From an uncultured Actinomycetes bacterium (GTDB lineage Bacteria > Actinomycetota > Thermoleophilia > RBG-16-64-13), in NCBI GenBank assembly GCA_903873715.1, contig CAIQPS010000079.1, positions 1 to 40,509 of the forward strand: 40,509 nt of DNA, read 5' to 3'. Shown piece after piece: positions 12,171 to 39,518 of the stretch (its first letter is position 1; every line of letters starts with the position of its first letter). A model generated the notes under the pieces. The model was given only the letters and a program-made list of their open reading frames with translations. It was not told where the DNA came from and did no database searches. The translations under genes were made by a program, and so were the position numbers.

Positions 12171-12403
12171 CGATCCTGCGGCCGGCGAGCGCCGGCGGTG
12201 GCCCCACTGCCATGCAGCAGGCTCATACCACTCCCGCTCCATGAAATCTCGGCGCGAATGACTTCCAGCGCTTTTCCCTGCACTACTATGCTATGTGGCT
12301 GTAATAGCCTGTACTGGGGGAGTTAGGCATCTCATCGTCGGAAACCGCATAGATTTGCGCGTATAGTCAGATGCCTGTTCATCGGATGGAGGAGGCGAAC
12401 CGC
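12171..12403. promoter_or_regulatory. Intergenic region upstream of the first transhydroxylase-family operon
   Basis: 233 bp. A GC-rich hairpin GCCGGC-GAGC-GCCGGC (12181-12196) close to the MFS stop may help end transcription but has no T-run. From about 12255 the DNA is noticeably more AT-rich and should hold the promoter of the molybdenum-enzyme operon; TATGCT (12287) and TATAGT (12362) are possible -10 boxes without clear -35 partners. A GGAGGAGG site (12388-12395) fixes the downstream start. No riboswitch fold was recognised. Confidence 0.35.
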
Positions 12404-15058
12404 ATGGCAGACGAAACCTACAAACCGCCGACAGCCAAGGCGACAGGGGCCGACAAGACGGTCCACAAGGCGCTGGGGCTGAGCGGCGGCATCTTCGGCG
12501 CATCACCGTGCGCTGTCGATGTCAAAGACGGCAAGATCATCCGCATCAGGCCGCTCCACTGGGACTCGGCGTACGATCCCAAGACGTTCAATCCCTGGAC
12601 CATCGAGAGGAACGGCAAGCAGCTCAAGCCGTACTTCAAGTCGGTCCCGGCTCCGTGGAGCCTCGCGTACAAGAAACGCGCCTACTCGCCCAACCGGGTC
12701 AACTACCCGCTCAAGCGCGTCGACTGGGATCCCAAGGGCGAGCGTAACCCGCAGAACCGTGGCAAGAGCCAGTTCGAGCGCATCTCCTGGGACGAAGCGG
12801 CGCAGATCGTGGCCGACGAGGTCCAGCGCCTCTGCGACACCTACGGCCCGCTGTCCATCCTGGTGCAGGGCGACGGCCACGGCGAGTGCAAGATGGTGCA
12901 CGCTCCTCACGGCTGCTCCACCCTGCTCCTCGACAAACTGGGCGGCTTCACCCAGCAGATCCGTAACCCCGACAGCTGGGAAGGCTGGTACTGGGGCTCC
13001 AAGCACGTGTGGGGCAAGGGCTACATCGGCATGATGGCCCCCAACGACAACATCGTGAAGGACATCTGCGAGAACAGCGACATGGTGGTCATGTGGGGTG
13101 GCGACCCCGAGACCACGACCTGGGGCTTCCGCGGCCAGTTCGCGAGCCGCCTGCTCTACTTCTGGACCGAGATCGGCATCAAGCAGGTCTACATCAACCC
13201 GGACCTCAACTATGCCGCCGCCGTCCACGCCGACAAGTGGATCCCGGTGCTCCCGAACACCGACGCCGCCCTCCAGCTGGCGATCATGTACATGTGGATG
13301 ACCGAGGGCACGTACGACAAGGAATACGTCGAGACCCACACCGTCGGTTTCGACAAGATGAAGGCCTACGTCCTCGGTGAGGAAGACGGCACTCCCAAGA
13401 CCCCGGCCTGGGCGTCTCCGAAGTGCGGCATCCCCACCTGGACCATCAAGGCCCTCGCCCGCGACTGGGCGAAGAAGGTCGTCACCATCGGCCACTACTT
13501 CGGTGGTGGGATGGCCCGCGGCCCGTACTCCACCGAGCCGGCGCGCCTCGAGTGCGTCCTCCTCGGCATGCAGGGCCTGGGCAAACCGGGCGTTCATCAG
13601 GCGCAGGTGGCCTACACCGGCATGCCGAAGAACATCATCACCGGCGGCGCCGACCACATGGGCCCGTTCGCCAACCTGAACAGCAAACCGTACGGAGAGC
13701 GCCTGCTCAAACCCCACCGCGGCACTCCGACCGCCTGGGGCAAGCAGATGATCCCGAAGGTCCTCGTCGAAGAGGCCATCCGCGACGGCAAGTGCGAGTT
13801 CTGGGGCACCGGCGGCCACGAGGAACCCACCTCCGACCAGTACAGGCGCTATGAGTACCCCATCGCCAAGGAGAAGGGCGGCACCGAGATCCACAGGATG
13901 TGGACCGACACCCCGTGCCGGGTCACCTGCTGGGGCGGCGGCGGCGAGGTCATGGAAGCCTTCCGCAACCCGAAGATCGAGATCGTCGTGGCTCAGCACC
14001 CGTGGCTCGAGAACGACACCCTCTGCGCGGACATCATCTTCCCGGTGACCACCACCCTCGAGTGCGACGACATCTCGCCGTGCATCCGTGAGGGCGACAG
14101 CTTCCAGAGCGTCGTGCTCATGAACCGGGCCATCGACCCGGTCGGCGAGGCCCGCACCGACTACCACGTGGTCTGCGCCATCGCCGAAAAGATGGGCAAA
14201 CTCGAACTCGTCACCGACGGCTTCACGGATGAGGAACTCGTCCGCGGCACGTACGAGGGCATGAAGTTCGACACGGTCACCCCGTGGGAGGAGTTCGTCG
14301 AGAAGCAGTACACGGTCCTGCCCGTGGCTCCCGACTGGGAAAAATGGCCGGCCGGTCTCTACGAGTTCTGGAAAGACCCGGTCAACAACCCCATCCCGAC
14401 GCCCACCGGCAAGCTCGAGTTCTGGTCGGAGAGCCTGGAGAAGGCTTTCCCGACAGACGAAGAACGCCCGGGCATCCCGAAATGGATCGAGAAGGGCATC
14501 ACCCACGACGAGCGCATCTCCAGCTACCGCGCCCGCAAGTACCCGCTGCTCGTCATGTCCAACCACGGCCGCTGGCGTACTCACGCCCAGGGCGACGACA
14601 TCCCGTGGACCAAAGAGACGGTCACCGGCAAGATCAAGGGTTGGGACGGCTACTGGTACGAACCGTGCTGGATCAACACCAACGACGCCAAAGCCCGTGG
14701 CATCAAGCAGGGCGACATCGTCAAGGTCTTCAATGAGCGCGGTACGGTGCTCTGCGGCGCCCTCGTGTGGGAACGCATCATCCCGGGCTGCATCTCGGTG
14801 GACCACGGCGCCCGCGCCGACTTCATCGACGACGACTTCACCCTCGAGCGCGGCGGCGCCATCAACGTCGTGTCGCCCAAGGGCCTGACCTCCAAGCATG
14901 CCGGCGGCCAGGCGACCAGCGGCTACCTTGCCGAGGTCGCGAAAGTCTCGATGGCCGAGATGGAAGAGTGGAGAGAGAAGTATCCGAAGGCATTCGAACG
15001 CCCGTACGATCCCGCTTCCGGCCTTCGCTACGATAGCTGGGTCAAGGAGGGGAGGTAA
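12404..15058 (+). CDS. Molybdopterin (bis-MGD) oxidoreductase, transhydroxylase-family large subunit, divergent copy
   Basis: An 884-residue catalytic subunit of the DMSO-reductase superfamily. It lacks the N-terminal Cys cluster motif of most family members, as does pyrogallol-phloroglucinol transhydroxylase. The segment NPDSWEGWYWG (188-198) holds D190 and S191, matching the Asp174-Ser175 pair of the Pelobacter enzyme where Ser binds Mo; H159 corresponds to its His144. The FPGY tyrosine region of that enzyme is not conserved here (residues near 400-420 read QVAYTGMP). The substrate pocket therefore differs, and the reaction could be hydroxyl transfer, reductive dehydroxylation or another change on a phenolic ring. 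Start ATG 12404 is fixed by GGAGGAGG eight bases upstream. The stop lies 2 nt before the Fe-S subunit gene. Cytosolic; no Tat signal is seen. Confidence 0.85.
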   Translation: MADETYKPPTAKATGADKTVHKALGLSGGIFGASPCAVDVKDGKIIRIRPLHWDSAYDPKTFNPWTIERNGKQLKPYFKSVPAPWSLAYKKRAYSPNRVNYPLKRVDWDPKGERNPQNRGKSQFERISWDEAAQIVADEVQRLCDTYGPLSILVQGDGHGECKMVHAPHGCSTLLLDKLGGFTQQIRNPDSWEGWYWGSKHVWGKGYIGMMAPNDNIVKDICENSDMVVMWGGDPETTTWGFRGQFASRLLYFWTEIGIKQVYINPDLNYAAAVHADKWIPVLPNTDAALQLAIMYMWMTEGTYDKEYVETHTVGFDKMKAYVLGEEDGTPKTPAWASPKCGIPTWTIKALARDWAKKVVTIGHYFGGGMARGPYSTEPARLECVLLGMQGLGKPGVHQAQVAYTGMPKNIITGGADHMGPFANLNSKPYGERLLKPHRGTPTAWGKQMIPKVLVEEAIRDGKCEFWGTGGHEEPTSDQYRRYEYPIAKEKGGTEIHRMWTDTPCRVTCWGGGGEVMEAFRNPKIEIVVAQHPWLENDTLCADIIFPVTTTLECDDISPCIREGDSFQSVVLMNRAIDPVGEARTDYHVVCAIAEKMGKLELVTDGFTDEELVRGTYEGMKFDTVTPWEEFVEKQYTVLPVAPDWEKWPAGLYEFWKDPVNNPIPTPTGKLEFWSESLEKAFPTDEERPGIPKWIEKGITHDERISSYRARKYPLLVMSNHGRWRTHAQGDDIPWTKETVTGKIKGWDGYWYEPCWINTNDAKARGIKQGDIVKVFNERGTVLCGALVWERIIPGCISVDHGARADFIDDDFTLERGGAINVVSPKGLTSKHAGGQATSGYLAEVAKVSMAEMEEWREKYPKAFERPYDPASGLRYDSWVKEGR

Positions 15059-15060
15059 CA

Positions 15061-15882
15061 ATGGGCAAGAAAGTCTTTGTCATCGACACCGCCCGGTGCA
15101 ACGGCTGCTACAACTGCCAGATCGTCTGCAAAGACGAGCACGTGGGTAACGACTGGTCGCCGATCGCGAAACCGCAGCCGGAGATCGGCCAGTTCTGGGT
15201 CCACCTGCAGGAGAAGGTCCGCGGTACCGTGCCGAAGGTGAAAGTGGCGTACCGCCCGCACCTCTGCCAGCACTGCGACGACGCTCCCTGCATGGACGCG
15301 TGCAAGGTCGAAGGCGCCGTCTACAAACGTGAAGACGGACTGGTGGTCATCGACACCGACAAGTGCACCGGCTGCCGCCTCTGCGTGGCCGCCTGCCCGT
15401 ACGACGCCATCTTCTTCAACGAGGACCTCAACCTGGCGCAGAAGTGCACCGGTTGCGCGCACCTTCTGGACGACGGCTGGGGCGAACCGCGCTGCGCGGA
15501 CGCCTGCCCGACCGAAGCCCTCAAGCTGATGGACGAGGATGAGGCCAAAGAGCTCATCGCCAAGGCCGAGACCGTGAAGGGCACGTACGACAGCGGCGCC
15601 AAGCCGCGCGTCTACTACCTCGGTCTGCCCAAGAAGTTCATCGCCGGCACGCTCTACGAACCGGTCGAGGAAGAAGTGGTCATCGGCGCCAAGGCGACCC
15701 TCAAAGCCGCCGACGGCAAGGTCCTGACCACCGAGACCGACGCTTACGGCGACTTCTGGTTCGAAGGCATCGACGACGGCGTGTACTCCCTCGAACTGGC
15801 CTCCGCCGGCAAGAAGGTGGCCTTCGCCGACTTGGACACCACCGAAGCCGACATCAACCTCGGAGACATCCCGCTCGCCTAG
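15061..15882 (+). CDS. Four-cluster Fe-S subunit of transhydroxylase-family enzyme
   Basis: A 273-residue partner of the preceding subunit. Four ferredoxin-like Cys motifs are complete: CNGCYNC..C (starting C13), CQHC....C...C, CTGCRLC...C and CTGC...C...C. These sixteen cysteines are enough for four [4Fe-4S] clusters. Residues from about 195 form an Ig/carboxypeptidase-regulatory-like beta domain ('GATVTLKAADGKVLT', 'YGDFWFEGIDDGVYSLEL'), a known C-terminal feature of the transhydroxylase small subunit. It carries electrons to or from the molybdenum site or a docking partner. Its ribosome-binding site (GAGGGGAGG) lies in the end of the upstream gene, so expression is coupled. Compared with its sister at 25291-26112 it has one more cluster. 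Confidence 0.9.
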   Translation: MGKKVFVIDTARCNGCYNCQIVCKDEHVGNDWSPIAKPQPEIGQFWVHLQEKVRGTVPKVKVAYRPHLCQHCDDAPCMDACKVEGAVYKREDGLVVIDTDKCTGCRLCVAACPYDAIFFNEDLNLAQKCTGCAHLLDDGWGEPRCADACPTEALKLMDEDEAKELIAKAETVKGTYDSGAKPRVYYLGLPKKFIAGTLYEPVEEEVVIGAKATLKAADGKVLTTETDAYGDFWFEGIDDGVYSLELASAGKKVAFADLDTTEADINLGDIPLA

Positions 15883-25290: not shown

Positions 25291-26112
25291 CTAGAGGACG
25301 ATGTCCCCCAGGTTCACCGACTTGTACAGCTTGACGTCGACGGCCTTCGGGTCGTAGCCGGCCGCAACCACCCGCACCTGATACTGCGTGGGGGCCGCAA
25401 GGCCTTCGAACTCGAAGTCGCCGAAGCCGTCGGTCTTGGTGGCGGCGACGGTCTTGCCCTCGGATTCGAGGATCACGTCGACATCCTTGGCGCACTCGTC
25501 CTTGTCGCCGAAGACCACCGCTCCCGCGATGAACTCCTTGGGCAGGCCCACGTAGCAGACCTTCTCGCCCAGCTTGTAGTTGGCGAGCTGCTCGGTCTTC
25601 GCGGACTTCACCAGCTTGGAGATGTCGCTGTTGGGGTCGTCCAGGTCACCGAACACCAGGGCGCCGGTGGGACAGGACTCGACGCAGCGAGGCTCTTTCC
25701 AGCCGTCGTCGAGCAGGTGGGCGCACATGGTGCACTTCTGCGCGACTTCCTTCTCCTCGTTCCAGGTGATCACCCGGTACGGGCAGCGGCCGACGATATC
25801 CTTGAGGCCGGCGGCCTTCTTCGGATCGATGATCACGATGCCGTCGTCCCGCATGTACACCGCGTCCGGATGCCCGTTACCACAGGGCATGGCGTCGCAC
25901 TGCTGACACAGGTGGGCGACGTAGTCGACCTTCACCTTGGGATACTGGCCGCGCTCTTTCTCCACGACGGTCAGGAAGGTCTGACCGGTCATGGGCAGAG
26001 CCGCGGAGTAGCCCTTGTGCTCGTTACCGCAGTACTCGTCCTTGCAGGAGATGAAGCAGTTGTAGCAGCCATTGCATTTGGTGACGTCCATCACCATCCC
26101 GAATCTAGTCAC
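25291..26112 (-). CDS. athS: Transhydroxylase small subunit, three-cluster Fe-S protein
   Basis: A 273-residue partner of the large subunit at 26114-28645. Cys motif 1 (CNGCYNC...C) and motif 4 (CTMC...C...C) are complete. Motif 2 reads CQQCDAMPCGNGH, its fourth Cys replaced by His. Motif 3 keeps only its last Cys (GRCPY). In four-cluster ferredoxin folds those four missing ligands belong to one cluster, so three [4Fe-4S] clusters remain, as known for Pelobacter acidigallici transhydroxylase. An Ig-like beta domain follows from about residue 195. GTG 26112 gives the same N-terminal length as that enzyme before the first Cys; its GGGAGG site lies in the end of the large-subunit gene, one base away. 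Confidence 0.9.
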   Translation of the reverse strand: MTRFGMVMDVTKCNGCYNCFISCKDEYCGNEHKGYSAALPMTGQTFLTVVEKERGQYPKVKVDYVAHLCQQCDAMPCGNGHPDAVYMRDDGIVIIDPKKAAGLKDIVGRCPYRVITWNEEKEVAQKCTMCAHLLDDGWKEPRCVESCPTGALVFGDLDDPNSDISKLVKSAKTEQLANYKLGEKVCYVGLPKEFIAGAVVFGDKDECAKDVDVILESEGKTVAATKTDGFGDFEFEGLAAPTQYQVRVVAAGYDPKAVDVKLYKSVNLGDIVL

Positions 26113-26113
26113 C

Positions 26114-28645
26114 TCAGGCCTCCCATTTCCGGAACTCGATGAGGCAGGAGTTGGGAGCCATGCCCGGCACGTTCTTGGACACCATCTTGCTCGGGGTGAG
26201 CATGTTCACGCAGCCGCCCCGGTCGGTGGTGCCGGCTTTGCCCGGCTCGATGGGATCGTAGCTGGCCGCTCCTTCATAGGAGTGCAGCACGCCCGGACGG
26301 ACCCTCTCTGTGACCTGGGCCACGCAGAGGACCGACGCGCGGTCGTTGTACAGCTCGATGACGTCACCCTGCTTGATGCCCCTCGGCTCGGCGTCCGACG
26401 GATGCACGCGCGCCACCCAGTACTTGTAACCATCGTTGTCCAGGCGGTGCCCCGGGATCTCCGAGAGCCACGGCACGTGGTGGTCGTGGTGGGTGTGGAA
26501 CGTGAACCGCGGGTGCGGCGAGATGAGGGCGATCGGGTACTTCTTGAACGCCTCGGACTCGTGGCCCTCCCAGCTGGGGATGTACTTGGCCAGCGGGGCG
26601 CGCTCGGTGTCGTCCGGGGTGTTGGCCAGCAGGCTCTGGGACACGAACTCGATCTTGCCCGAGTATGTGCCGAGCTCGGTGCCCTTGTCGGTGTGGCGCT
26701 TGGGGTTGCTGGTGTCGGGGGTGTCGCAGGTGCGGTCCTCGTACCACCAGCGGAGCGCCGGGGTGGGCTTGTAGTTCTCGAGCTGGGGCACCACGAAGTA
26801 GCCCTTCTTCTTGAACTCGTCGAACATGATGTACTTCGGCAGGTCCGACTTGTAGAACATCTTCTCGATCCACTGATCCCAGGTGTTGCCCTCGGTGTAT
26901 TCCTGGAGGACACCCAGCTTCTCGGCGAGGCCGCAGAAGATGTCGTAGTCCGACTTGGATTCGCCCACCGGCTCCACGCATTTCTGCTGGTAGATGATGA
27001 TCCGGTGGTTGGCCGAGCCGGACGCGTGCAGGGAGTAGCCGCCGGAGCTGGCGTACTCGCTGATGTCGTCGCGCTCGAGGTTGGTGCAGGCCGGGAGGAT
27101 CACGTCGGCCAGGCGGGTCTCGGTGGAGAACCAGCAGTCCTGGTTGACGACGAACTCGAGTTCCGGGCTCTGGTACATCCGCACCCATTTGTTGGTGTCG
27201 ACCATCGTGGACAAGAACGCGCCGCCGTAGCGGTAGAACATCTTGACCTTGGAGTGGCCGGGCAGCGGGTATTCCCACTTGATGAACTGCTGCTCGAGCG
27301 AGCCGCCGCAGAACGGCTGGCCCATCCAGGCGTCTTTGCCGTTGAGGATGGCGTCCGGCGCGGTGATGCGGTACAGGCGCTGAGCCACCGGGTTGGCGAT
27401 GGGCTTCTCGGCCATGAGGTTGAAGTTGCCGCCGCTGGCGTAGCCCGGGAAGTCGAGCGTGTGGTTGTACGGCGGCCCGTTGCCCGTCCCCCAGATGCCG
27501 ACACCGGGTTTGCCCAGGCCCTGCATGGCCTGGAGGAGCACCAGCATGCGGGCGTGCTCGGTGGCGTAGGCCTGCCGGCAGTAGCCGCCCTCGCCGCCCT
27601 TGGTGCCGCCGGCCAACGTGGTGCGATGCGAAGCCCACTCACGGGCCAGGGCCACGATGGTGCGGGCCGGCACGTCGGTGACTTCCTCGCCCCACTGCGG
27701 GGTCTTGGGAGTGCCGTCCTCTTCACCGAGGATGTACTTCTTGAACTCGTCGAAGCCCAGGGTCTTGCGCTCGACGTATTCCTTGTCGTACGTGCCTTCG
27801 GTGAGCCACACGTGCGCGATCGCCGCGGCCAGCGCCGAGGTGGTGCCGGGCCGGTAGGAGATCCACTTGCTGCCCACGTGGGCGGCGGTGTAGTTGAAGT
27901 ACGGGTCCAGGAAGATCTGCTTGACGCCCTTATCCCGGAACCAGAGGCGCCACTGGGCCGACTCGTTGCCGCCGTAGATGCCGTGCGTGCTGTCGACGTC
28001 GTTGCCCCAATGGATGATCAGTTCTGTGTTGCGCAGGCTGTCTTCGAGCATGTCGTAATGCTCGGGGTTGCCCAACCTCCAGTAGAAACCGTAGGTGTGG
28101 GTGGCGCCCCAGTGCCAGCCTTCCCAGCTGTCCGGGTTGTCCAGGATGTCGGTGAAGCCGATGAGGCTGAAGAACCGGGACCAGGCGCCGGTACGGTAGC
28201 CGACGTTGCCCCAGTTGTGGTGCGAGGACGCCCGCGAGGTGATGGCTTCCGGCCCGTAGTCCTTCCGGATGCGGATCATCTCGTTGCCGACCAGCTCGAA
28301 GGCCTCCTTCCAGCTGATGCGCACGTACGGCGATTTGCCGCGGTTCTGCGCGTTGCGGCCGCCGGGGCCGGTGGAACCCGGGGCCCCTTTGGGGTCGAAG
28401 TCGACGCGCTTCATCGGGTACATGATGCGGTCCTCGGAGTAGACCCGGGCCCGCTCGGTGAGCGTGAACGGTGCGACGCAGGCTTTGCGCGGCGGCGTGT
28501 ACTTCTTGCCGTCGACGTCGATCACCCAGGATGCGGCGTCGTTCTCGTCAAAGACGAGCGGGCGCACCTTGGTGATCTTGCCACCTTCGACGTGGACCCT
28601 GATGGGCCCGCCGCCTGTGCAGTTCACAAAGGTCTTTTCCCCCAT
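26114..28645 (-). CDS. athL: Pyrogallol-phloroglucinol transhydroxylase-like large subunit (bis-MGD molybdenum enzyme)
   Basis: An 843-residue subunit that agrees with the P. acidigallici enzyme (as I recall its sequence) over its whole length. That enzyme moves a hydroxyl from 1,2,3,5-tetrahydroxybenzene to pyrogallol, giving phloroglucinol, a first step of anaerobic gallate breakdown. The N-terminus has no Fe-S Cys motif. SSHHNWGNVGYR gives H142 (His144 there), NPDSWEGWHWG gives D172 and the Mo ligand S173 (Asp174, Ser175), and FPGY gives Y402 (Tyr404). C-terminal 'DRGGCVNMLTP' is the pterin-binding region. ATG 28645 has AAGGGGG upstream. It follows the acyl-CoA dehydrogenase-like gene by 51 nt. 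The real substrate should be a trihydroxybenzene or close relative. No phloroglucinol reductase gene is recognised in the window. Confidence 0.88.
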   Translation of the reverse strand: MGEKTFVNCTGGGPIRVHVEGGKITKVRPLVFDENDAASWVIDVDGKKYTPPRKACVAPFTLTERARVYSEDRIMYPMKRVDFDPKGAPGSTGPGGRNAQNRGKSPYVRISWKEAFELVGNEMIRIRKDYGPEAITSRASSHHNWGNVGYRTGAWSRFFSLIGFTDILDNPDSWEGWHWGATHTYGFYWRLGNPEHYDMLEDSLRNTELIIHWGNDVDSTHGIYGGNESAQWRLWFRDKGVKQIFLDPYFNYTAAHVGSKWISYRPGTTSALAAAIAHVWLTEGTYDKEYVERKTLGFDEFKKYILGEEDGTPKTPQWGEEVTDVPARTIVALAREWASHRTTLAGGTKGGEGGYCRQAYATEHARMLVLLQAMQGLGKPGVGIWGTGNGPPYNHTLDFPGYASGGNFNLMAEKPIANPVAQRLYRITAPDAILNGKDAWMGQPFCGGSLEQQFIKWEYPLPGHSKVKMFYRYGGAFLSTMVDTNKWVRMYQSPELEFVVNQDCWFSTETRLADVILPACTNLERDDISEYASSGGYSLHASGSANHRIIIYQQKCVEPVGESKSDYDIFCGLAEKLGVLQEYTEGNTWDQWIEKMFYKSDLPKYIMFDEFKKKGYFVVPQLENYKPTPALRWWYEDRTCDTPDTSNPKRHTDKGTELGTYSGKIEFVSQSLLANTPDDTERAPLAKYIPSWEGHESEAFKKYPIALISPHPRFTFHTHHDHHVPWLSEIPGHRLDNDGYKYWVARVHPSDAEPRGIKQGDVIELYNDRASVLCVAQVTERVRPGVLHSYEGAASYDPIEPGKAGTTDRGGCVNMLTPSKMVSKNVPGMAPNSCLIEFRKWEA

Positions 28646-31135: not shown

Positions 31136-31441
31136 CTACCCGCCGGCCACCGCCGCCGTCACCAGCATGGTCGCGTCGTCTCCGAGCCTGCGGCCCAGGC
31201 TGCGCTCGCCGGTCACCCGCAGTCCGTCGACCACGACGATCACGCCGGGTTCCACGGCTTCCAGCCGCTTGTCGATGACCGTGCCCATCATCACCGGGTA
31301 CCGCTCGGCCAGACGCCGCAGCGCCGTGAGAACCGTGTCGCCCGGTCGGATCTCCTCGGTGAACTCCGCGGCGCGCGGCCCATCGGCCAGGCGCAGCCGC
31401 ATGCTGAGCGGCGGCAGCACCTCGACCCGCAGGACCCCCAT
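31136..31441 (-). CDS. MoaD/ThiS-like sulfur-carrier protein
   Basis: A 101-residue ubiquitin-fold protein ending in Ala-Gly-Gly (AAVAGG). A GG C-terminus is the part that is adenylated and thiocarboxylated in MoaD, which supplies sulfur to molybdopterin synthase. The typical 'GDTVLTALRRLAERYP' helix and 'VVVDG' strand are present. It is the last gene of the molybdenum-hydroxylase operon, 7 nt after the FAD subunit, with no MoaE, MoeB or other cofactor gene nearby. It may serve cofactor assembly for this enzyme, or its sulfuration, or another sulfur-transfer job. Its TAG stop sits in the loop of a 7-bp hairpin (31129-31145) that may help end transcription. Confidence 0.8.
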   Translation of the reverse strand: MGVLRVEVLPPLSMRLRLADGPRAAEFTEEIRPGDTVLTALRRLAERYPVMMGTVIDKRLEAVEPGVIVVVDGLRVTGERSLGRRLGDDATMLVTAAVAGG

Positions 31442-31448
31442 GGCTGCG

Positions 31449-33800
31449 CTAGTCGGCGCAGGCCAGCAGCGTGCGCTCCACCAGCGCCCGGGCGATGCTG
31501 ACCTTGTAGCGGTTGTCTGACAGCGGGAGGGTGCCGCTCACGGCCAGGTCGGCCGCCGCGGCGGCGGTCTCGCCGTCGAGCCGCTTGCCGGCCAGGAAGT
31601 CCTGGGCCGCCGTCGCGACGACCGGGCGCCCGTAGACGGCGTTCAGGCAGATGGAAGCCCTGCCGACGACACCTTCCGTCGCGACGATCTCCACGGCGCA
31701 ACTGACAACCGGGAAGTCGATGGAGTTGCGCAGCGCGAACTTGGCGTGCCTGCTCCGCGACCCTTCAGCCGGGGCGGGTATGCGGATCTCGGTGACGATC
31801 TCACCCGCTTCCAGCGCGGTGCTCCCACCCGGCGCGACCGCGAAGAACTCGCCCGCGCCGAGCGCCCGCGCCGTCGTGCAGATCTCCCCGCCCAGCGCCA
31901 CGAGCACCGGCGCCAGGTCCGACGCGCTCACCGAGACGCATGCGCAGTCCATGCAGCGCCCCGCCTCCGTGGCCACCTGTTCTGCGGCGAGTCCGGCCAC
32001 ATCCTCTCGCTTCATGGTCCGGTCGCCCGGCTGAAGGCTGGACACTGTCACGCGCCGGACCCCCGCGGTGAACGACGAAGGGCAGTGCTCCTCGGCAACC
32101 GGCGGCTCCGCGGGGCCCGCGCCCCCCAGATACCGGTCGATGGCGGCGGCGGCACGGCGGCCCGAGCCCATCGCCGTGGTGACGTAGCTTGGGCCCGAGG
32201 TCACGTCGCCGCTGGCGAAGAGGCCGGGGATGGCCGTCTCCTGGGTATCGGCGTCGACACGGATGAGCCCGCGCTGGAAGACGGAATCCGGCAGTTCTAT
32301 CCGCAGCGCGGCGATGTCGGGCTGCTGGCCGATGGCCACGACGATGGTGTCGGCCATGACACTGCTGACGGCGCCGGTGTCGTACACGGGGGCGAACCGC
32401 CCCTCCTCGTCGAACACCGCAGTACAGGCGACCAGTTCCATCCCGGCCGCGCAGTCGCCGCTCAAGAGCACCCTGCTGGGCCCGCACGACGGCCGGATCT
32501 CGACGCCTTCCTCCAGCGCCTCGTCCACCTCGGCTTTGATGGCCGGCATGTCCTCCAACGCTTCCAGGCAGGCCAGACTGACGGTGGCGGCGCCCCGGCG
32601 CTTCGCGGTGATGGCCGCGTCGATTGCGACGTTCCCACCCCCGATCACCAGCACGCTCCGCGCCTTCTCCCGCTCGTCGTCCACGCGCGACCGGCGCAGG
32701 TACTCCAGGCCGGATATCAGTTCCGGTCCCTCGCCGATGCCCAGTTCGCGCTCGCGCCAGGTGCCCAATGCCAGGAAGACGGCGTCGTAGCGGTCGCGCA
32801 AGGCCTGCAGGGCCATGTCCTTGCCGACCTCGACGCCCGCCAGGAACTCGATGCCGAGACTGCACAGGATCTCCACCTGGCGGTCGACGACCCGGTCGGG
32901 GAGCCGGTAGCCTGGGATGGCGTGGTTGAGCATGCCGCCCGGCTTCTCGAAGCGGTCGAAGACGGTGACGGCATGGCCGCTCATGCGGAGGTAGTAGGCG
33001 GCGGACAGACCTGCCGGTCCGGCACCCACGACCGCGACGGTCTTGCCCGTGGCGGCGGCCGGCTCGAGGCCCAGCCGCTCCCATTCGTCCAGCGCATAGT
33101 CGCCCACCGTGCGCTCGAGCGCCCGGATGGACACCGCCTCGTCCACGTCGCCGCGGTTGCAGGCCTTCTCGCAGAAGTGCGGGCACACCCGGCCGGTCAC
33201 GGCCGGCAGCGGGTTGTGCGCCAGCAGGCGCCGGGCCGCCGAGGCCAGGTCGCCCTGCTGCACAGCGCGCAGGTACACGGGGATCTCGGTGCCGGCCGGG
33301 CAGGCGCGCTCGCACGGGCTCGCCTGGAGCTTCGCGCCCCCGTAGATGGAGTGGTAGCGGTTGTCGCCGGCCAGCGCGTAGCAGGCATCGCCGCCCTTGC
33401 GCATGCAGTGGAAGCGGTCGTCCGGGCACCAGTAGTACCAGCAGCGCGTGCTCTGGCAGATGTTGCCGGCCACGGTGCCCATCTCCCGGATCTGCGGGGA
33501 GGCTACGCTCGCCGCGGCGGCGGCCACAGCCGGGAAGCGCTCCTGGACGCCGGGGTGCTCGGCCAGCGCCTTCAACTTGGTGAGCGCGCCGACGGTCAGC
33601 CCATCGCCGTCCACCACGATGTGATCCAGCGCCGGGAGGCCCTTGAGGTCCACGACCATCTGGGGATAATCGGTGCCTATCTCGTCCTTCATCTCCCCGA
33701 GCAGGTCGGTGCCGCCGGCCATCGCGCGGGCGCCGTCGCGGGCGAGAGCTTCGGATGCCTCGACGAGGGTGGCGGGGCGCAGGTGTTCGAACGGTCTCAT
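31449..33800 (-). CDS. Molybdenum hydroxylase FAD-binding subunit with an internally nested GltD-like oxidoreductase
   Basis: A 783-residue protein of two interleaved parts. Residues 1-158 begin a CoxM/XdhB-type FAD subunit: AGGTDLL (28-34), 'MGTVAGNICQSTRC' (107-120), then a Cys-rich loop (C120, C125, C132, C140) like the 4Fe-4S loop of 4-hydroxybenzoyl-CoA reductase beta subunits. At about 160 a complete glutamate-synthase small-chain-like unit starts: CERACPAG, GRVCPHFCEKAC, VGAGPAG (258-264), VIGGGN (385-390), 'GLFASGDV' (526-533) and the closing RCMDCAC (615-621). After that the FAD subunit resumes exactly where family members continue ('SASDLAPVLVALGG') to the end. The result could pass electrons between NAD(P)H and the hydroxylase through extra flavin and clusters. 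ATG 33800 has GGGGAGGG upstream; 14 nt after the Mo subunit. Confidence 0.92.
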   Translation of the reverse strand: MRPFEHLRPATLVEASEALARDGARAMAGGTDLLGEMKDEIGTDYPQMVVDLKGLPALDHIVVDGDGLTVGALTKLKALAEHPGVQERFPAVAAAAASVASPQIREMGTVAGNICQSTRCWYYWCPDDRFHCMRKGGDACYALAGDNRYHSIYGGAKLQASPCERACPAGTEIPVYLRAVQQGDLASAARRLLAHNPLPAVTGRVCPHFCEKACNRGDVDEAVSIRALERTVGDYALDEWERLGLEPAAATGKTVAVVGAGPAGLSAAYYLRMSGHAVTVFDRFEKPGGMLNHAIPGYRLPDRVVDRQVEILCSLGIEFLAGVEVGKDMALQALRDRYDAVFLALGTWRERELGIGEGPELISGLEYLRRSRVDDEREKARSVLVIGGGNVAIDAAITAKRRGAATVSLACLEALEDMPAIKAEVDEALEEGVEIRPSCGPSRVLLSGDCAAGMELVACTAVFDEEGRFAPVYDTGAVSSVMADTIVVAIGQQPDIAALRIELPDSVFQRGLIRVDADTQETAIPGLFASGDVTSGPSYVTTAMGSGRRAAAAIDRYLGGAGPAEPPVAEEHCPSSFTAGVRRVTVSSLQPGDRTMKREDVAGLAAEQVATEAGRCMDCACVSVSASDLAPVLVALGGEICTTARALGAGEFFAVAPGGSTALEAGEIVTEIRIPAPAEGSRSRHAKFALRNSIDFPVVSCAVEIVATEGVVGRASICLNAVYGRPVVATAAQDFLAGKRLDGETAAAAADLAVSGTLPLSDNRYKVSIARALVERTLLACAD

Positions 33801-33814
33801 TGCTGCCCTCCCCT

Positions 33815-36247
33815 CTAGGCCTTGCCCAGGCTTCTCAGGACCCGGGACGGTGTGACCGGATACTCGTCGATCCACCGGCCGATGGCGTTGTAGACCGCCG
33901 CCGGGATGAGGTAGGGCGCCGTGGTGGCCACATCCTCGCCGATGCCCACCGCACCGTAGGGCCCGTAGCCCATGCCGGTCTCGACCAGCCGGGTCTCGAT
34001 GGGCCCGATGTCGAGGATGGTGGGGATCTTGTAGTTGAGCATGTCCGAGTTGAGGTAGACCCCGGTCACCGGATCGGTGACCATCTCTTCGAAGAGACCC
34101 CGGCCCATCGCCATGTAGGCGCCTCCGTACTGCTGGCCCTCGCATCCGTCCCAGTTGATCACGTGCCCCACGTCGTTCACCGTCACCAGCTTCAGGATGT
34201 CTATCTTGCCGGTGTCGGTATCGACCGCCACCTCCACGAAGTGCGCCTGCCGGCACAGCCGCAGCCGTTTGCTCGCGTAGGCCCCGTCCTGCACCTGGAA
34301 GCTGTCGGCGAAGAGGGGCTGGCAGTAGTCCTCGCGGGGCGCGCCCACGCGGGGGAACTCCGTCTCCACCATGGTCCCCGACGGCGCCGAGCGCTTGACG
34401 AACTCGGCTACCGAGATGCGGTTGGCCGGGTCGGCCTTCTCGAAGATGTAGCCCTCCTGGATCCCCAGGTCCTCGGGAAGCAGGTCCGGGAAGATGGGCG
34501 GGAAGCCGCCCTGCTGGGTGACCCCGCGCGGCGCCACCGCTGCCTCCAGGATGCGGCGCTTGAGGATCCTGGCCGCGTTGCGCACGGCGAAACCGTTGAC
34601 TGACAGGTTGGTGGAACTGTCGGGGGTCATCGCGAAGAAGCCCGCGTCCTCCTGCTGGCGGTAGAAGACCTTCTCCACCGGCAGGCCTATCTCGTCGGCT
34701 GCGATCTGGCAGTAGGCGGTCTCGGCGTTCTGCCCGCCGTCGGCCCGGCAGCCGAAGATGGTGGCGCTGCCGTCGTTGCGCTCCAGCCGGATGGCCATCT
34801 CGCTGGACCCGCTCGAATCCTCCCACTCGTGCGTCCACACGAAGCCGAGGCCGTGCATGCGGTGGTCATCCAGGCTCTTGGTGCCGGGCAGATGCCACTT
34901 GGCATCCCAGTCGATGGCCGCCTTGCCCTTGTCGAGACATTCGCGCAGGCTGTCGCGCTGCGCGAACCCTAGTTCGGCCTTCCTCTCCGCCAGCCAGGTC
35001 ACGTCGTGGCCGTCGGCGCCGTCGTTCTTGAGCGCCACCTCGACGGGGTCCAGCCCGAGCTCTCCGGCCACCTTGTTGCACACCAAGTTGAGCGTGCACA
35101 CGTTGGTGTTCTGCTCGCAGCGCACCGGCACGGTCGGCACCTTGTTCACCTCGACCATCACGCTGTGCTCGCGGACGTTGGGGATGCAGGTGTTCTCCAG
35201 TATGTGGTTGAGCGTGCCGAATACCGGATACTCCTGGTTGTCCAGCAGCGAATCCCCCGAGACGGCCAGGATGGTACCGTCCCGCGTGGCGCCCACCTTG
35301 AGGGTGACGAAGCCCTCGTCCATGTTGCCGCCACAGAAGTCGTTCCGGCGATCCATGGTCCACTTGACCGGGCGGCCGGTCCTCTTGGAGAGCACGCCGG
35401 CACAGTAGTTGCCGAAGTTGCTCCGCGGAGTAGCGTTCCAGCCGCCGAAGCTCGCCCCCTGACGAGGACAGTGCAGGCTGATGGTGCTCATGGGCACGTC
35501 GAACCACTTGGAGATGCAGCGCTTGATGATGTGCGGGCGCTGGTGCTTGATCCATATCTCGGGCGCGTCCCCGTTCCAGCGGAAGACCCCGCAGGGCCGC
35601 TCCGGCCCCACCCAGGTGTTCAGGTGCTGCCGGTACGTGAACTCCAGGACGATATCCGAGGCGAGGAACCCGGCCTCGACGTCCCCGCGGCCGCCCAGTT
35701 GGTCCATGCGCACGTTGCCCACCGGGAAGGTCTCCGGTTTGGTGAGGAGGGCGTCCGGCTTCACGGCGTCGCGGATGTCGAGCAGGAAGGGCAACTGCTC
35801 CCACTCCACCTCGATGAGCCGCACCGCTTCCTCGGCCACGGCCACCGAGTCGGCGGCGATGACCGCGCCGACCTCCTGCCCCTCGTAGTAGGCGATGCGC
35901 GGCACCGGCGGCTCAGACGTCACGATGTGGCCGCCCAGGTCCACCACTTCGGGGAGCCCCGGGTCGTCGTAGCGCAGGATGGCCCGCACGCCGGGGAGTG
36001 CAGCGGCCTTGGAGGTATCCATCGACACGATGCGGCAATGCGCGTACGGCGACGCCAACCACCGCATCTGCAGCATGCCCGGCAGTGCCACATCGAAGGT
36101 GTAGACCGCCTGTCCGCTTGCTTTCTCGTACCCATCGATGCGGCGCACGCCCCGCTTGCCGATATAGCGCTGGTCCTCGAGCGGATAGGCGTCCGCCCGC
36201 AGGTTGTCCATGAGCCCGAGGATGCGGGCCAGGGTCTCGTCGGTCAC
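33815..36247 (-). CDS. Xanthine-oxidase-family molybdenum-binding catalytic subunit
   Basis: An 810-residue subunit of the XdhA/CoxL/aldehyde-oxidase class. An N-terminal 'hammerhead' domain (about 30-150) contains 'IGKRGVRRIDGYEKASGQAVYTFDV'. The Mo-cofactor domains follow: 'QGASFGGWNATPRS', 'RPVKWTMDRRNDF', and the catalytic Glu in GIGED (E771) near the C-terminus. The cofactor is molybdopterin (cytosine dinucleotide usually) with a sulfido ligand, and the enzymes hydroxylate aldehydes, purines or aromatic rings with water. The CODH motif AYRCSFR is absent. The substrate is not evident; aldehyde oxidation would fit the operon. The GTG start (36247) overlaps the [2Fe-2S] gene's TGA by 4 nt and has GGGAGGTG upstream. 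Confidence 0.92.
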   Translation of the reverse strand: MTDETLARILGLMDNLRADAYPLEDQRYIGKRGVRRIDGYEKASGQAVYTFDVALPGMLQMRWLASPYAHCRIVSMDTSKAAALPGVRAILRYDDPGLPEVVDLGGHIVTSEPPVPRIAYYEGQEVGAVIAADSVAVAEEAVRLIEVEWEQLPFLLDIRDAVKPDALLTKPETFPVGNVRMDQLGGRGDVEAGFLASDIVLEFTYRQHLNTWVGPERPCGVFRWNGDAPEIWIKHQRPHIIKRCISKWFDVPMSTISLHCPRQGASFGGWNATPRSNFGNYCAGVLSKRTGRPVKWTMDRRNDFCGGNMDEGFVTLKVGATRDGTILAVSGDSLLDNQEYPVFGTLNHILENTCIPNVREHSVMVEVNKVPTVPVRCEQNTNVCTLNLVCNKVAGELGLDPVEVALKNDGADGHDVTWLAERKAELGFAQRDSLRECLDKGKAAIDWDAKWHLPGTKSLDDHRMHGLGFVWTHEWEDSSGSSEMAIRLERNDGSATIFGCRADGGQNAETAYCQIAADEIGLPVEKVFYRQQEDAGFFAMTPDSSTNLSVNGFAVRNAARILKRRILEAAVAPRGVTQQGGFPPIFPDLLPEDLGIQEGYIFEKADPANRISVAEFVKRSAPSGTMVETEFPRVGAPREDYCQPLFADSFQVQDGAYASKRLRLCRQAHFVEVAVDTDTGKIDILKLVTVNDVGHVINWDGCEGQQYGGAYMAMGRGLFEEMVTDPVTGVYLNSDMLNYKIPTILDIGPIETRLVETGMGYGPYGAVGIGEDVATTAPYLIPAAVYNAIGRWIDEYPVTPSRVLRSLGKA

Positions 36248-36798
36248 CGGGTCACCTCCCGGGCGGCGCGGGTATCGCCGGTCGCCTCGGCCGCTCCGCC
36301 ACTCGCGCCCGGCGCCGCACCGCGCAGGATCTCGGCGGCCTCCAGCACCGCCTTGATGTGCTGCGGGTAGGTGCCACAGCGGCACAGGTTGCCGGCCAGC
36401 CCCTCCATGACCTCCCGTTCCGTGGGATCGGGGTTCCGGTCGAGCAGTGCCTTGGCGGCCACCACGAAGCCTGGGGTGCAGAAGCCGCACTGCATGCAGC
36501 TGTACTTCACATACGACTCGATGAGCGGGTGGCCCGCGGCGGCGATGCCCTCCACCGTCTCCACCGAACGGCCGTCACACTGGATAGCGAGCACCATGCA
36601 GGACAGCACCACGCTGCCGTCCAGGATGACCGAGCAAGCGCCGCAGGCGCCGCGGTCGCAGAACTCCTTGACGCCCAAGAGGCCAAGCTGGTCGTGGAGC
36701 AGGTGCTGCAATGTCCAGTTGGGCTGCACCAGCAGGTCGTGCGGTTGCCCGTTGACCGCCAGCCTGATGGGGGCGTGACTTTTGACCTTCTCGGCCAT
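36244..36798 (-). CDS. Molybdenum hydroxylase [2Fe-2S] subunit
   Basis: A 184-residue electron-transfer subunit. A plant-ferredoxin-type cluster motif (C-x4-C-x2-C...C: CDRGACGAC and SC near residues 47-67) is followed by the second helical cluster domain (CGFC near 103 and CRCG near 138). The C-terminal 27 residues are a Gly/Ala-rich tail beyond the conserved domain. It carries electrons from the Mo site to the FAD subunit. ATG 36798 follows AAAGGAG and lies 18 nt after the dehydratase gene; its end overlaps the Mo-subunit start (GTGA). Confidence 0.95.
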   Translation of the reverse strand: MAEKVKSHAPIRLAVNGQPHDLLVQPNWTLQHLLHDQLGLLGVKEFCDRGACGACSVILDGSVVLSCMVLAIQCDGRSVETVEGIAAAGHPLIESYVKYSCMQCGFCTPGFVVAAKALLDRNPDPTEREVMEGLAGNLCRCGTYPQHIKAVLEAAEILRGAAPGASGGAAEATGDTRAAREVTR

Positions 36799-36816: not shown

Positions 36817-37968
36817 TTATCCGATGACGCCGAGCCGCGTGGCGTTCATGAGGTCCCAGTCGATGCGGCACCCCAGACCCGGCAGCGTGGGCGCGTGGAT
36901 GAACCCCTCCCGGTCGACGGTCAGCGGTTCTTCCAGGCCGTAGCTGACGAAGTCGAAGCCATAGGCACCCGGCTCGTTGGGGCAGAGCAACTCGAAGAAG
37001 TCGCAGTTGGTGATGGCCATGGCGATGTTGAGCATCGCCACCTGGTTCGTCGGGCTGTAGGCGTCGTGCAGCTCGCAGTTCATCCCGTAGGCTTCCGCCA
37101 GGTGGCAGATCTTCATGACTCCCGTGATGCCGCCCTTGACCATGACGTCGGCGCGCAGGTAGTCGGTGGCCTTCATCTCGATCCAGGCGGGATACACGTG
37201 CAGACCGCCCAGCGTGCTCTCCGTGGCCAGCACCGGGATGGTCAGCTTCTCGCGGAGCCGGGAGTAGCCGGCGATGTCGTCGGCCTTCAGCGGATCCTCG
37301 TACCAGTAGTAGTCCAGCTCCTGGAGCGCCAGGCCCAGACGCAACGCCTGCGGGTACTTGTACTGCCAGCCGGCGTCGATCATGAGTTCCATGTCGCTTC
37401 CGACCGCTTCGCGCACCGCGGCACACGCCTCGATGTCGCCTTTCAGGGTGCCGCTGCCACTGTTGGTGAAGAAGTCCGAGAACGACGGCGGGTGCAGCTT
37501 GTACGCCTTGATGCCCATCTCTTTGTAGGCCAGCGCTTCGGCGACGTACGCGGCCGCGTCGGGGAGAGCCCACGAGGACGCGTAGGCGGGAAGCTTCTCG
37601 CGACAGGTGCCGAGCAGCCGGTGGACCGGCAACCCCACGGACTTGCCGGCGATGTCCCACAGGACCACGTCGATGTAGCCCTGAACGGTGTGGTGCAGAC
37701 AGCGGGCCATGCCGCGCAGTTGGTGCCAGATGGCCCCGATGTCCATGGGGTCGCGGCCGAGCAGACGGGGCTTCACCACCTCGACGATCTGCTTCGCGAC
37801 GACCTCCACGCCGGCGCCGACAGCCAGCTGGTCGGCGATGAAGGTGTGACCGCTCACACCCTCGTCGGTCTCTATGGTCAGTATGCCCAGACGGCTGTCC
37901 GCCGGGAATCCCACTACTCGGGCACAGTCGTACGTGTGTACGCTCACCCTGATGTCCGTGATCTTGAT
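36817..37968 (-). CDS. Mandelate racemase/muconate-lactonizing-type enolase superfamily enzyme (sugar-acid dehydratase-like)
   Basis: A 383-residue enzyme. Metal ligands are D198 (LMIDAG), E224 (WYEDPL) and E250 (ATEST); the acid/base dyad is D274 (DVMVKGG) and H301 (LHDAYSP), in the same order and spacing as in mandelate racemase. The KxK motif of that family appears as K157-x-H159 (YKLH), so the second Lys is replaced by His, and a 12-residue longer loop follows. Members abstract a proton alpha to a carboxylate; many are sugar-acid dehydratases. The reading frame begins ATC AAG ATC ACG, in the place where relatives have MKITDIRV, with AGGAGG five bases upstream. No ATG, GTG or TTG fits nearby (a GTG at 37947 lacks a site), so a non-standard ATC start or a sequence error is likely. 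It lies 23 nt after glycerate kinase. Confidence 0.88.
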   Translation of the reverse strand: MKITDIRVSVHTYDCARVVGFPADSRLGILTIETDEGVSGHTFIADQLAVGAGVEVVAKQIVEVVKPRLLGRDPMDIGAIWHQLRGMARCLHHTVQGYIDVVLWDIAGKSVGLPVHRLLGTCREKLPAYASSWALPDAAAYVAEALAYKEMGIKAYKLHPPSFSDFFTNSGSGTLKGDIEACAAVREAVGSDMELMIDAGWQYKYPQALRLGLALQELDYYWYEDPLKADDIAGYSRLREKLTIPVLATESTLGGLHVYPAWIEMKATDYLRADVMVKGGITGVMKICHLAEAYGMNCELHDAYSPTNQVAMLNIAMAITNCDFFELLCPNEPGAYGFDFVSYGLEEPLTVDREGFIHAPTLPGLGCRIDWDLMNATRLGVIG

Positions 37969-37991
37969 GGTGTCCTCCTGCCTGCTCGGTC

Positions 37992-39518
37992 CTACTTCAC
38001 GCCCACGCTGGTGGCGCTCTGCTTCTCGCCGCCCCGGGCCAACACCAGGACCACCGTGAGGTCCTGTGCGCTCACGCCGGGTTCGGCGTCCACCCCGCAG
38101 CCGGCCGCCCACAGGACGGGGCTGGTGTTGTGCCGCTTGAGTCCTTCGGCCGGGTCCAGTCCCGCCGCCTCGATCTCCGCCCGGGTGTGGCCGTCGACGA
38201 TGCCCCCGGCGAGACACCAAGGCATGCCGGCCACGGCGACGCCGCCCTCCACTCCGGGCCCGTCCGTCCCATCGGTGTCCACGGACCCGATGACGATGTT
38301 CTCGCTCCCCGCGATCCGCAACGCCGCCGCCACCGCGTACTCCTGGTCGCGACCGCCAACGCCGCCATCCTGCCCCACCGACACGACCATCTCGCCCCCG
38401 CTGAACAGCGCGACCGGTGGCTCCACCGGCTGCCCGCCTGACTCGATCTCGCGTGCGATGCAGCCGGCCATGGCCCCCGCCTGAGAAGCCTCGACGAACC
38501 AGAGGTTCTCGGCCAGGAAGAGGGCGTTGAACCCCAGTTCCCGGGCCTTCCGCATCGCGGAGGGGAAGAGCCCGGTGTCCGAGCCGGACGGCATGAGTCC
38601 GAAGAGCCGCCAAGGCGCGAACCCCTCGAACTCGTCGGCTTTGACCGTCTCCCACTCTCCGGGCGCCCGGCGCAGGAAGTCCTCGACCGCCGCCGGCACG
38701 GCATCCGCCGCGCCGTAGGACTCGAGCACGCCGGCCGCTCCCGCGAACGTGGTGCAGTCGGGCAGGCCGTGAAGCCAGAAGTTCTTGCGCATCAGGGCTT
38801 CGTGCGAGCTGGGGTCGGCCAGGATGAGGTGTATCACCCTGGCGGGTTGCAGCGCCCGGGTGATACGGCCGCCCTTGAGGCGGTCGAGGTGGTTCCGCAC
38901 CGCGTTGAGTTCGGGGGTCGGGACGCCCCGCTCGATCTGCAGGATACGGGTGGTCTCCTGGATGTCTTCGAGCGTGATACCCGGCGCGGGCAGCGTCAGC
39001 AGCGAAGAGATGCCGTTACCGGCCAGCATGAAGACGAGGTCGTCCGGACCGAAGCCGCCACACATGTCAAGGATGGCCTCGCACCCACGGACGCAGTCCG
39101 CGTCGGGCACCGGATGGCCGCCCAGCGTCACCCCGATCTTCTCGCAGATCACCGGATGACCCTTCTTGTCTATCACGTGGCCGCCGGTGAGCCGGTCGCC
39201 AAGGATGTCCTCGAGCGCCCGCGCCGCCCTCTGCACGCCCTTGCCGGCGCCGAACACGAACACCCGCCCGACCCGCGACAGGTCTATGACCTCCGTCCCG
39301 CTGCGCGGATCCCCTCGGGGCTCGAAGCGCCCTCCCCCGATGACGAGCCGGCGCCGGGCCGTGCCGTCATCCTCTTGGTCCAGCCGGACGAGTTCGCGGA
39401 CGTTCGCGTAGGGGTCGGCGCCCTGCAGACCGGCCTCCAGGATCTCCACCATGGCCCGCCGCCCAGGCAGGTTGCCGTGAGAGGTGAGGGTCTCCGCGTT
39501 CCTTATGCGAGGAGGCAC
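37992..39518 (-). CDS. Glycerate 2-kinase (MOFRL family)
   Basis: A 508-residue kinase of the DUF4147/MOFRL type that phosphorylates D-glycerate to 2-phosphoglycerate. N-terminal 'RVFVFGAGKGVQRAARALEDIL' and 'GGHPVPD' belong to the nucleotide-binding part; 'PELNAVRNHLDRLKGGR' and the C-terminal 'DQEYAVAAALRIAG', 'SVDTDGTDGPG' and 'GIVDGHT' belong to the MOFRL domain. It is somewhat longer than typical bacterial members (about 420-450). The GTG start (39518) is favoured because 'RIRNAE.LTSHGN' is the usual N-terminus and AGGAGAGG lies upstream; it overlaps the enolase-like gene by 16 nt. It would feed glycerate into lower glycolysis. Confidence 0.9.
   Translation of the reverse strand: MPPRIRNAETLTSHGNLPGRRAMVEILEAGLQGADPYANVRELVRLDQEDDGTARRRLVIGGGRFEPRGDPRSGTEVIDLSRVGRVFVFGAGKGVQRAARALEDILGDRLTGGHVIDKKGHPVICEKIGVTLGGHPVPDADCVRGCEAILDMCGGFGPDDLVFMLAGNGISSLLTLPAPGITLEDIQETTRILQIERGVPTPELNAVRNHLDRLKGGRITRALQPARVIHLILADPSSHEALMRKNFWLHGLPDCTTFAGAAGVLESYGAADAVPAAVEDFLRRAPGEWETVKADEFEGFAPWRLFGLMPSGSDTGLFPSAMRKARELGFNALFLAENLWFVEASQAGAMAGCIAREIESGGQPVEPPVALFSGGEMVVSVGQDGGVGGRDQEYAVAAALRIAGSENIVIGSVDTDGTDGPGVEGGVAVAGMPWCLAGGIVDGHTRAEIEAAGLDPAEGLKRHNTSPVLWAAGCGVDAEPGVSAQDLTVVLVLARGGEKQSATSVGVK

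Follow-up and report, generated by a model that had tools for sequence, protein, structure and literature searches.

The window analysed here, a stretch of 40,509 nucleotides from an uncultured Actinomycetes bacterium, carries a gene for a protein that an earlier note read, from the sequence alone, as a whole GltD-like oxidoreductase nested inside the FAD subunit of a molybdenum hydroxylase. This raises two questions: whether one redox enzyme has really been built into another, and which electron carriers such a chain would connect.

The gene, termed NEST, starts with the ATG at position 33800, preceded by a ribosome-binding stretch (GAGGGGAGGG), and has its stop at 31449. A Pfam scan of the product identified FAD_binding_5 (residues 3–118), Fer4_20 (160–237), Pyr_redox_2 (254–547) and CO_deh_flav_C (687–779). 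Both domains of a xanthine-oxidase (XO) family FAD subunit score above the Pfam cut-off (PF00941, 113.4 bits; PF03450, 44.6 bits), and the AGGTD and TxxGN FAD motifs are almost invariant among the aligned nested proteins. When the outer halves are joined without the insert, they match residues 2–327 of 5y6q_B (E 1e-42), 4-HBCR beta (1rm6_B, E 2e-32) and 5g5g_B, all whole XO-family FAD subunits with a [4Fe-4S] loop; the score of NEST with the 4-HBCR beta model TIGR03195 (151.3 bits) lies below the family cut-off of 404.55. Alignments to the un-nested relatives L017 and L019–L022, which come from other genomes, end at query residues 155–157 and restart at 618–621, with few residues between. The interior contains Fer4_20 and Pyr_redox_2 with cluster cysteines and FAD and NAD(P) motifs. 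NEST is an XO-family FAD subunit (residues 1–157 and 621–783) split by a GltD-like module (residues 158–620; Table 1).

Most of the layout described in the earlier note holds: the GltD-like unit of about 460 residues is complete and brings Cys motifs and sites for FAD and NAD(P) of its own, the FAD subunit resumes at the homologous point, where the un-nested relatives break, a single chain has all motifs for a pair of FAD sites, for one nicotinamide site and for several clusters, and the junctions, placed near 33330 and 31940, were correct within one or two residues. The interruption had been described as falling after the Fe-S loop; its position at about residue 158 stands, but the insert lies inside the loop, with the fourth ligand, C621, beyond it.

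Table 1 Features of the nested gene and its operon in the window
Feature	Position	Strand	Basis
MoaD/SAMP1-like small protein, GG C-terminus	31136..31441	(-)	family scans
Nested FAD subunit (NEST), 783 aa	31449..33800	(-)	gene call, Pfam, homologue copies
Outer part 2, residues 621-783, remaining FAD domain + CO_deh_flav_C	31452..31940	(-)	Pfam, structure-sequence matches
Second junction R-C616-x2-C619-x-C621	31938..31955	(-)	alignments
Inserted circularly permuted GltD-like module (by sequence comparison), residues 158-620	31941..33329	(-)	family scans, alignments to GltD types
NAD(P)-binding motif GGGNVA (387-392), NADH-type C411-L412-E413 where GltD has YRR	32562..32642	(-)	alignments
GAGPAG dinucleotide-binding motif of module FAD, residues 259-264	33009..33026	(-)	Pfam, alignment
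Putative module Fe-S ligands C163, C167, C206, C210, C214, E229 (SIRALER)	33114..33314	(-)	alignment; PMC10482914
Outer part 1, residues 1-157, FAD_binding_5 (AGGTDLL, TVAGNI) + C120, C132, C140	33330..33800	(-)	Pfam, structure-sequence matches, alignment
Loop ligand codon C140	33381-33383	(-)	
Loop ligand codon C132	33405-33407	(-)	
Loop ligand codon C120	33441-33443	(-)	
Mo-binding large subunit (MoL), nearest solved relative 4-HBCR alpha (1rm6_A)	33815..36247	(-)	family scans, structure-sequence match
2x[2Fe-2S] small subunit (FeS)	36244..36798	(-)	family scans
Mandelate-racemase/sugar-acid-dehydratase-like enolase-superfamily gene, 5' end approximate	36817..37980	(-)	family scans
Glycerate 2-kinase-like (DUF4147/MOFRL) gene	37992..39452	(-)	family scans
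Enolase gene, cut by contig end	39503..40507	(-)	family scans

Exactly 11 cysteine columns are invariant in all 31 of the 31 full-length nested proteins: C120, C132 and C140 ahead of the insert, C163, C167, C206, C210 and C214 early in it, and C616, C619 and C621 at its end. Together with E229, which is invariant in the alignment (n = 32), they make 12 ligands, the number needed for three [4Fe-4S] clusters. C621 aligns with the last loop cysteine of un-nested relatives and of 4-HBCR beta and stands 7 residues ahead of a conserved Asp; because this spacing is the same in 4-HBCR beta, the hydroxylase loop cluster would consist of C120/C132/C140/C621. All four cysteines of the 4-HBCR-type [4Fe-4S] loop are thus present and invariant, three before the insert and the fourth after it. 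By analogy with DPD and Nfn, the other seven cysteines and E229 would form two GltD-type clusters, with C616 and C619 belonging to a module cluster and C621 to the loop cluster; since C619 and C621 are two residues apart, these two clusters would have to adjoin. In StnC, K170 is a ligand of the FAD-proximal cluster, with Glu at this position in NfnB (PMC10482914). E229 aligns with K170 of StnC, and the invariant R299 aligns with R201 of NfnB and R239 of StnC.

The order of motifs within the module differs from that of GltD, PreT, DPD and NfnB, with which it has in common Fer4_20, the FAD/NAD(P) fold and the cluster cysteines. RCxxC is N-terminal in these proteins, in GltD and PreT just ahead of PCxxxCP, whereas in the NEST module it is C-terminal, behind the nucleotide-binding fold. 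With the tail moved to the front, the BLAST score rose from 203 to 209 bits against E. coli GltD and from 184 to 189 bits against PreT, and RCMDC aligned with RCLSC and RCLLC of the two proteins; a weak phmmer match to 4ylf_B likewise puts the tail ahead of the module. Judged by these alignments, the module is a circular permutation of GltD, which places C616 and C619 next to C621. Permuted relatives also occur as stand-alone proteins (PRK12771-type and others, including L004 from the same genome, 42% identical), so that the permuted order extends beyond the nested form. They carry a C-terminal RCxxC, in most cases leading into ferredoxin-like clusters, whereas in NEST the tail leads into the hydroxylase loop. 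StnC (8oh5_C) and the A subunits of NfnABC (9bov, 9n5u) have RCxxCGC after the nucleotide-binding fold as well, but their modules are fused end to end with NuoG/formate-dehydrogenase-like domains. What is particular to NEST is that both ends of the module lie within the loop of the hydroxylase, whose cluster stands in for the ferredoxin-like extension. An AlphaFold2 model based on a 32-sequence alignment reached a pLDDT of 88 and a pTM of 0.81, with low confidence at residues 565–570. Its top Foldseek matches were the GltD-like modules of NfnABC (9bov, 9n5u) and StnABC (8oh5), with TM-scores of at most 0.56 on the query; among the matches listed, none spanned both outer and inner parts.

We searched other genomes for the same insertion. 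The source genome itself holds three full-length nested copies on three contigs (100, 50 and 47% identity), and further full-length copies are found in metagenome-assembled genomes of a Pseudoscilispira, Lachnospiraceae, Deltaproteobacteria and Spirochaetaceae and in relatives. With a probe of 103 residues spanning the first junction, nested genes were detected in 10 of 299 genomes from the class of the window genome; the class of L005 contributed 4 of 291, the phylum of L018 6 of 296 and that of L007 7 of 297 (an eighth match there, G1278, is un-nested). In the window's family, about 8 of 18 genomes carry nested genes, contig ends cutting two of the 8, and in the family of L006 the count is 6 of 299 (one copy cut short, another on a single contig of 6,931,886 bases), all of these being counts from samples and lower bounds wherever few candidates per genome were scored. 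Across the sampled genomes of Clostridia, Spirochaetota and a deltaproteobacterial phylum, the nested frequency is 1–3%. The possibility that NEST is an assembly chimera or a sequencing error is negligible in view of three copies in the source genome and dozens elsewhere, the conserved ligands and the copy on a 6.9-Mb contig, and an assembly chimera is ruled out by independent full-length or junction-spanning copies in several phyla. The nested architecture is real and recurrent. In L110 (G1328) and L133 (G1837), the nested genes carry a frame break or a TAG in frame; these are possibly pseudogenes or sequencing errors.

The nested proteins fall into two types at the nicotinamide site. NADPH-dependent GltD has the motif AYRRDEENMPG and NAD-dependent E. 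coli PreT has VAREELDEFPA. The window copy and about two thirds of the nested proteins carry CLE (or ALE, SLE, CVE) in place of YRR, the NADPH signature, which is present in the remaining third or so. On the basis of this one motif, the window type would use NADH and the YRR sister group NADPH. The earlier proposal that the module lets the hydroxylase use or make NADPH is upheld for an NAD(P)H link, to which the invariant junction ligands point, but for the window copy the acidic CLE motif makes NADPH less likely than NADH.

Trees of the outer and inner parts conflict. In the outer tree, the window copy groups with L037, L038, L041 and L042 (SH-aLRT 93) and with L109 (97); in the inner tree, the former four join the YRR group, and L109 groups with Clostridia (99). 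The inner data reject the outer grouping when it is imposed on them (p-AU 2e-6 without L109, 4e-74 with L109), and the outer data in turn reject the inner groupings (p 0.022 for L109, 3e-6 for the YRR group), p-values that are optimistic since the groups were chosen after the trees were seen. Over residues 158–559, L109 is 57–79% identical to L101/L118 versus 28–64% to its outer kin, with no excess outside the module, and its kinship switches near 144–146 and 609–629, close to both junctions. For the window copy, the switch is weaker and falls inside the module, from about residue 325 onwards, not at the junctions, and does not show a clean transfer of the whole cassette. The un-nested L122, L123 and L124 lie inside the window's outer clade (99) and serve as an empty-site comparison; their position implies that the module was gained or lost more than once. 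These comparisons indicate that the module was exchanged between lineages, most clearly in L109, and gained or lost. A two-gene version, with an un-nested FAD subunit and a separate GltD-like gene, was not found near L017, L020–L022 or L122–L124. We see an even chance that the XO-family loop is a recurrent docking site, where a permuted GltD cassette with close ends would be gained, lost and exchanged between one and the same pair of points, so that hydroxylases change among ferredoxin, NADH and NADPH with the Mo site untouched.

NEST lies in a run of genes on one strand from 40507 to 31136, separated by no more than about 80 bases, in the order enolase, glycerate 2-kinase-like, sugar-acid-dehydratase-like, FeS, MoL, NEST and MoaD-like. 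The genes for the Mo and [2Fe-2S] subunits adjoin NEST and stand directly upstream at nearly all nested loci with enough flank; at L104 and L115, the [2Fe-2S] gene precedes the nested gene and MoL was not detected there. The gene types of the window operon are those of a non-phosphorylative Entner-Doudoroff route, a lead towards an aldehyde oxidoreductase, although the scores with the glyceraldehyde dehydrogenase models NF041018–NF041020 (198.7, 116.9 and 160.3 bits) all lie under the equivalog cut-offs (790, 350 and 290). Other nested loci adjoin ABC importers, a dihydroxy-acid dehydratase or different genes, so that the substrate probably varies.

Further genes were observed around these operons. 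MoaD/SAMP1-like genes directly follow the nested gene in L038 (5977–6240), L041 (5933–6208), L045 (6143–6421) and L046 (1959–2234); such proteins are possibly dedicated to the nested enzyme. At the locus on the 6.93-Mb contig, a MobA-like NTP transferase gene (PF12804), which we read as MocA-type, lies behind the nested gene. In the source genome, 97% complete and with at least three XO-family enzymes of the NEST type, no XdhC_CoxI (PF02625, XdhC-type maturase) was found, nor was a 16S gene. A conserved protein of about 145 residues (YSKxAxRILWxDDQ) is encoded near nested operons (L038, 5446–5898; L041, 6255–6689 and 3–377); two copies scanned gave no Pfam match. The window also contains two DMSO-reductase-family-like operons, each with a large subunit and an Fe-S protein, at 25291–28645 (-) and, known from gene calls, at 12386–15882 (+); the large subunit at 26114–28645 (-) matches the pyrogallol hydroxytransferase-like domain PF21423.

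The nested module probably wires the Mo site directly to NADH or NADPH. The layout of the chain, its repeated occurrence, the invariant ligands and the gene neighbours are seen directly; from them we infer a cluster assignment and an electron path that could run in either direction: NAD(H), module FAD, three [4Fe-4S] clusters, hydroxylase FAD, two [2Fe-2S] clusters and Mo. The proximal [4Fe-4S] cluster next to the module FAD would be bound by C167/C206/C210/E229 and the distal one by C163/C214/C616/C619, followed by the loop cluster. In 4-HBCR, the loop cluster is the delivery point of ferredoxin; the module would therefore take over from the loose ferredoxin as a nicotinamide port built into the chain. 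XDH-type FAD sites are themselves able to bind NAD, so that the module need not be the sole nicotinamide site. We consider it likely that NEST is the flavin subunit of a three-subunit XO-family Mo enzyme, with a permuted GltD-like NAD(P)H:FAD module in its [4Fe-4S] loop as the wire from NAD(H) to Mo, although the negative search for an XdhC-type maturase in the source genome speaks against this. That the module is instead a relic with a structural or regulatory role and no electron transfer is very improbable, since its FAD, NAD(P) and Fe-S ligand motifs are kept across phyla.

The earlier note had further suggested that the chain could bifurcate electrons between two carriers. In such a scheme, the module FAD would split pairs between the loop cluster and hydroxylase on one path and ferredoxin or a second carrier on the other. 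The chain does combine two flavins with the residues of NfnB-type enzymes, by alignment a Glu at the proximal cluster (E229; Lys in non-bifurcating StnC) and an Arg near FAD N5 (R299), which are necessary at most and insufficient. The same Glu occurs in E. coli GltD, which is not known to bifurcate. StnC, the nearest solved example of a module supplying another domain, has the Arg too, and its GltD-like domain passes NADPH electrons via two [4Fe-4S] clusters to another domain and is described as non-bifurcating (PMC10482914). The window operon encodes neither an NfnA-type partner with a second flavin and [2Fe-2S] nor another second acceptor. Bifurcation is therefore unsupported, and we regard it as improbable.

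Within the preferred reading of a nicotinamide-to-Mo wire, two refinements concern its direction. NADH-driven dehydroxylation of an aromatic or heteroaromatic compound, as in Ucdh and 4-HBCR, is a tentative reading to which we give somewhat less than an even chance: the 4-HBCR-type loop is retained, the nearest solved relative of MoL is 4-HBCR alpha, Ucdh uses NADH (PMC12771579), and branched-chain amino-acid type ABC importers adjoin L039 and L043, but the 4-HBCR models all score far under cut-off and the window operon is not aromatic-looking. Rather unlikely is the converse, an NAD+-linked oxidoreductase for an aldehyde such as glyceraldehyde in sugar-acid breakdown, feeding the glycerate 2-kinase and enolase. 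It would account for the tight same-strand run of Entner-Doudoroff gene types and for the best NCBIfam match of the FeS subunit, glyceraldehyde dehydrogenase gamma; against it stand the scores under all glyceraldehyde dehydrogenase cut-offs, the higher scores of MoL with 4-HBCR and XdhA, and the other nested loci examined, which are without this neighbour set.

Among known systems, the HcrB (1rm6_B, TIGR03195) and PaoB-type subunits have, like NEST, an FAD domain, a four-Cys [4Fe-4S] loop and CO_deh_flav_C, and Mo and 2x[2Fe-2S] subunits as partners, but they are contiguous proteins of 320–330 residues without a nicotinamide module, and 4-HBCR takes its electrons from ferredoxin. StnC, which has Lys where NEST has E229, is an NADPH user. 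The urolithin C dehydroxylase Ucdh of Enterocloster bolteae is an NADH-driven, three-subunit XO-family enzyme nearest to 4-HBCR, for which the description of UcdhA goes no further than an FAD medium subunit (PMC12771579). In the E. coli uric acid pathway, the cluster with XdhD-YgfM and YgfK likewise pairs an XO-family enzyme with a GltD-like flavoenzyme, but YgfK is a separate enzyme that reduces the next intermediate (PMC12507026), which excludes a link to NEST, and YgfM is without the [4Fe-4S] loop and the insert. A survey of about 5,900 genomes reported GltD fused to members of the DMSO-reductase family but to none of the XO family (PMC6147048), a survey of molybdoproteins whose scope perhaps left separate FAD subunits outside, and a review of GltD-like modules covers GltS, DPD, Nfn and AegA (PMC8097209). 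In the part of the literature covered, we found no published description of the nested form, which is apparently undescribed so far.

Domain searches rank nested proteins highest as glutamate-synthase-like oxidoreductases, which calls for caution in annotation. If the proposed wire is true, NEST would represent a further route, besides the XDH-type FAD site and ferredoxin, by which a molybdenum hydroxylase is joined to the electron carriers of the cell, a route made by nesting one redox enzyme within the cluster loop of another. It would also predict which cofactor, NADH or NADPH, serves a group of molybdenum enzymes of anaerobes that is so far unassigned, and enzyme design would gain a natural NAD(P)H module that appears to be exchangeable.
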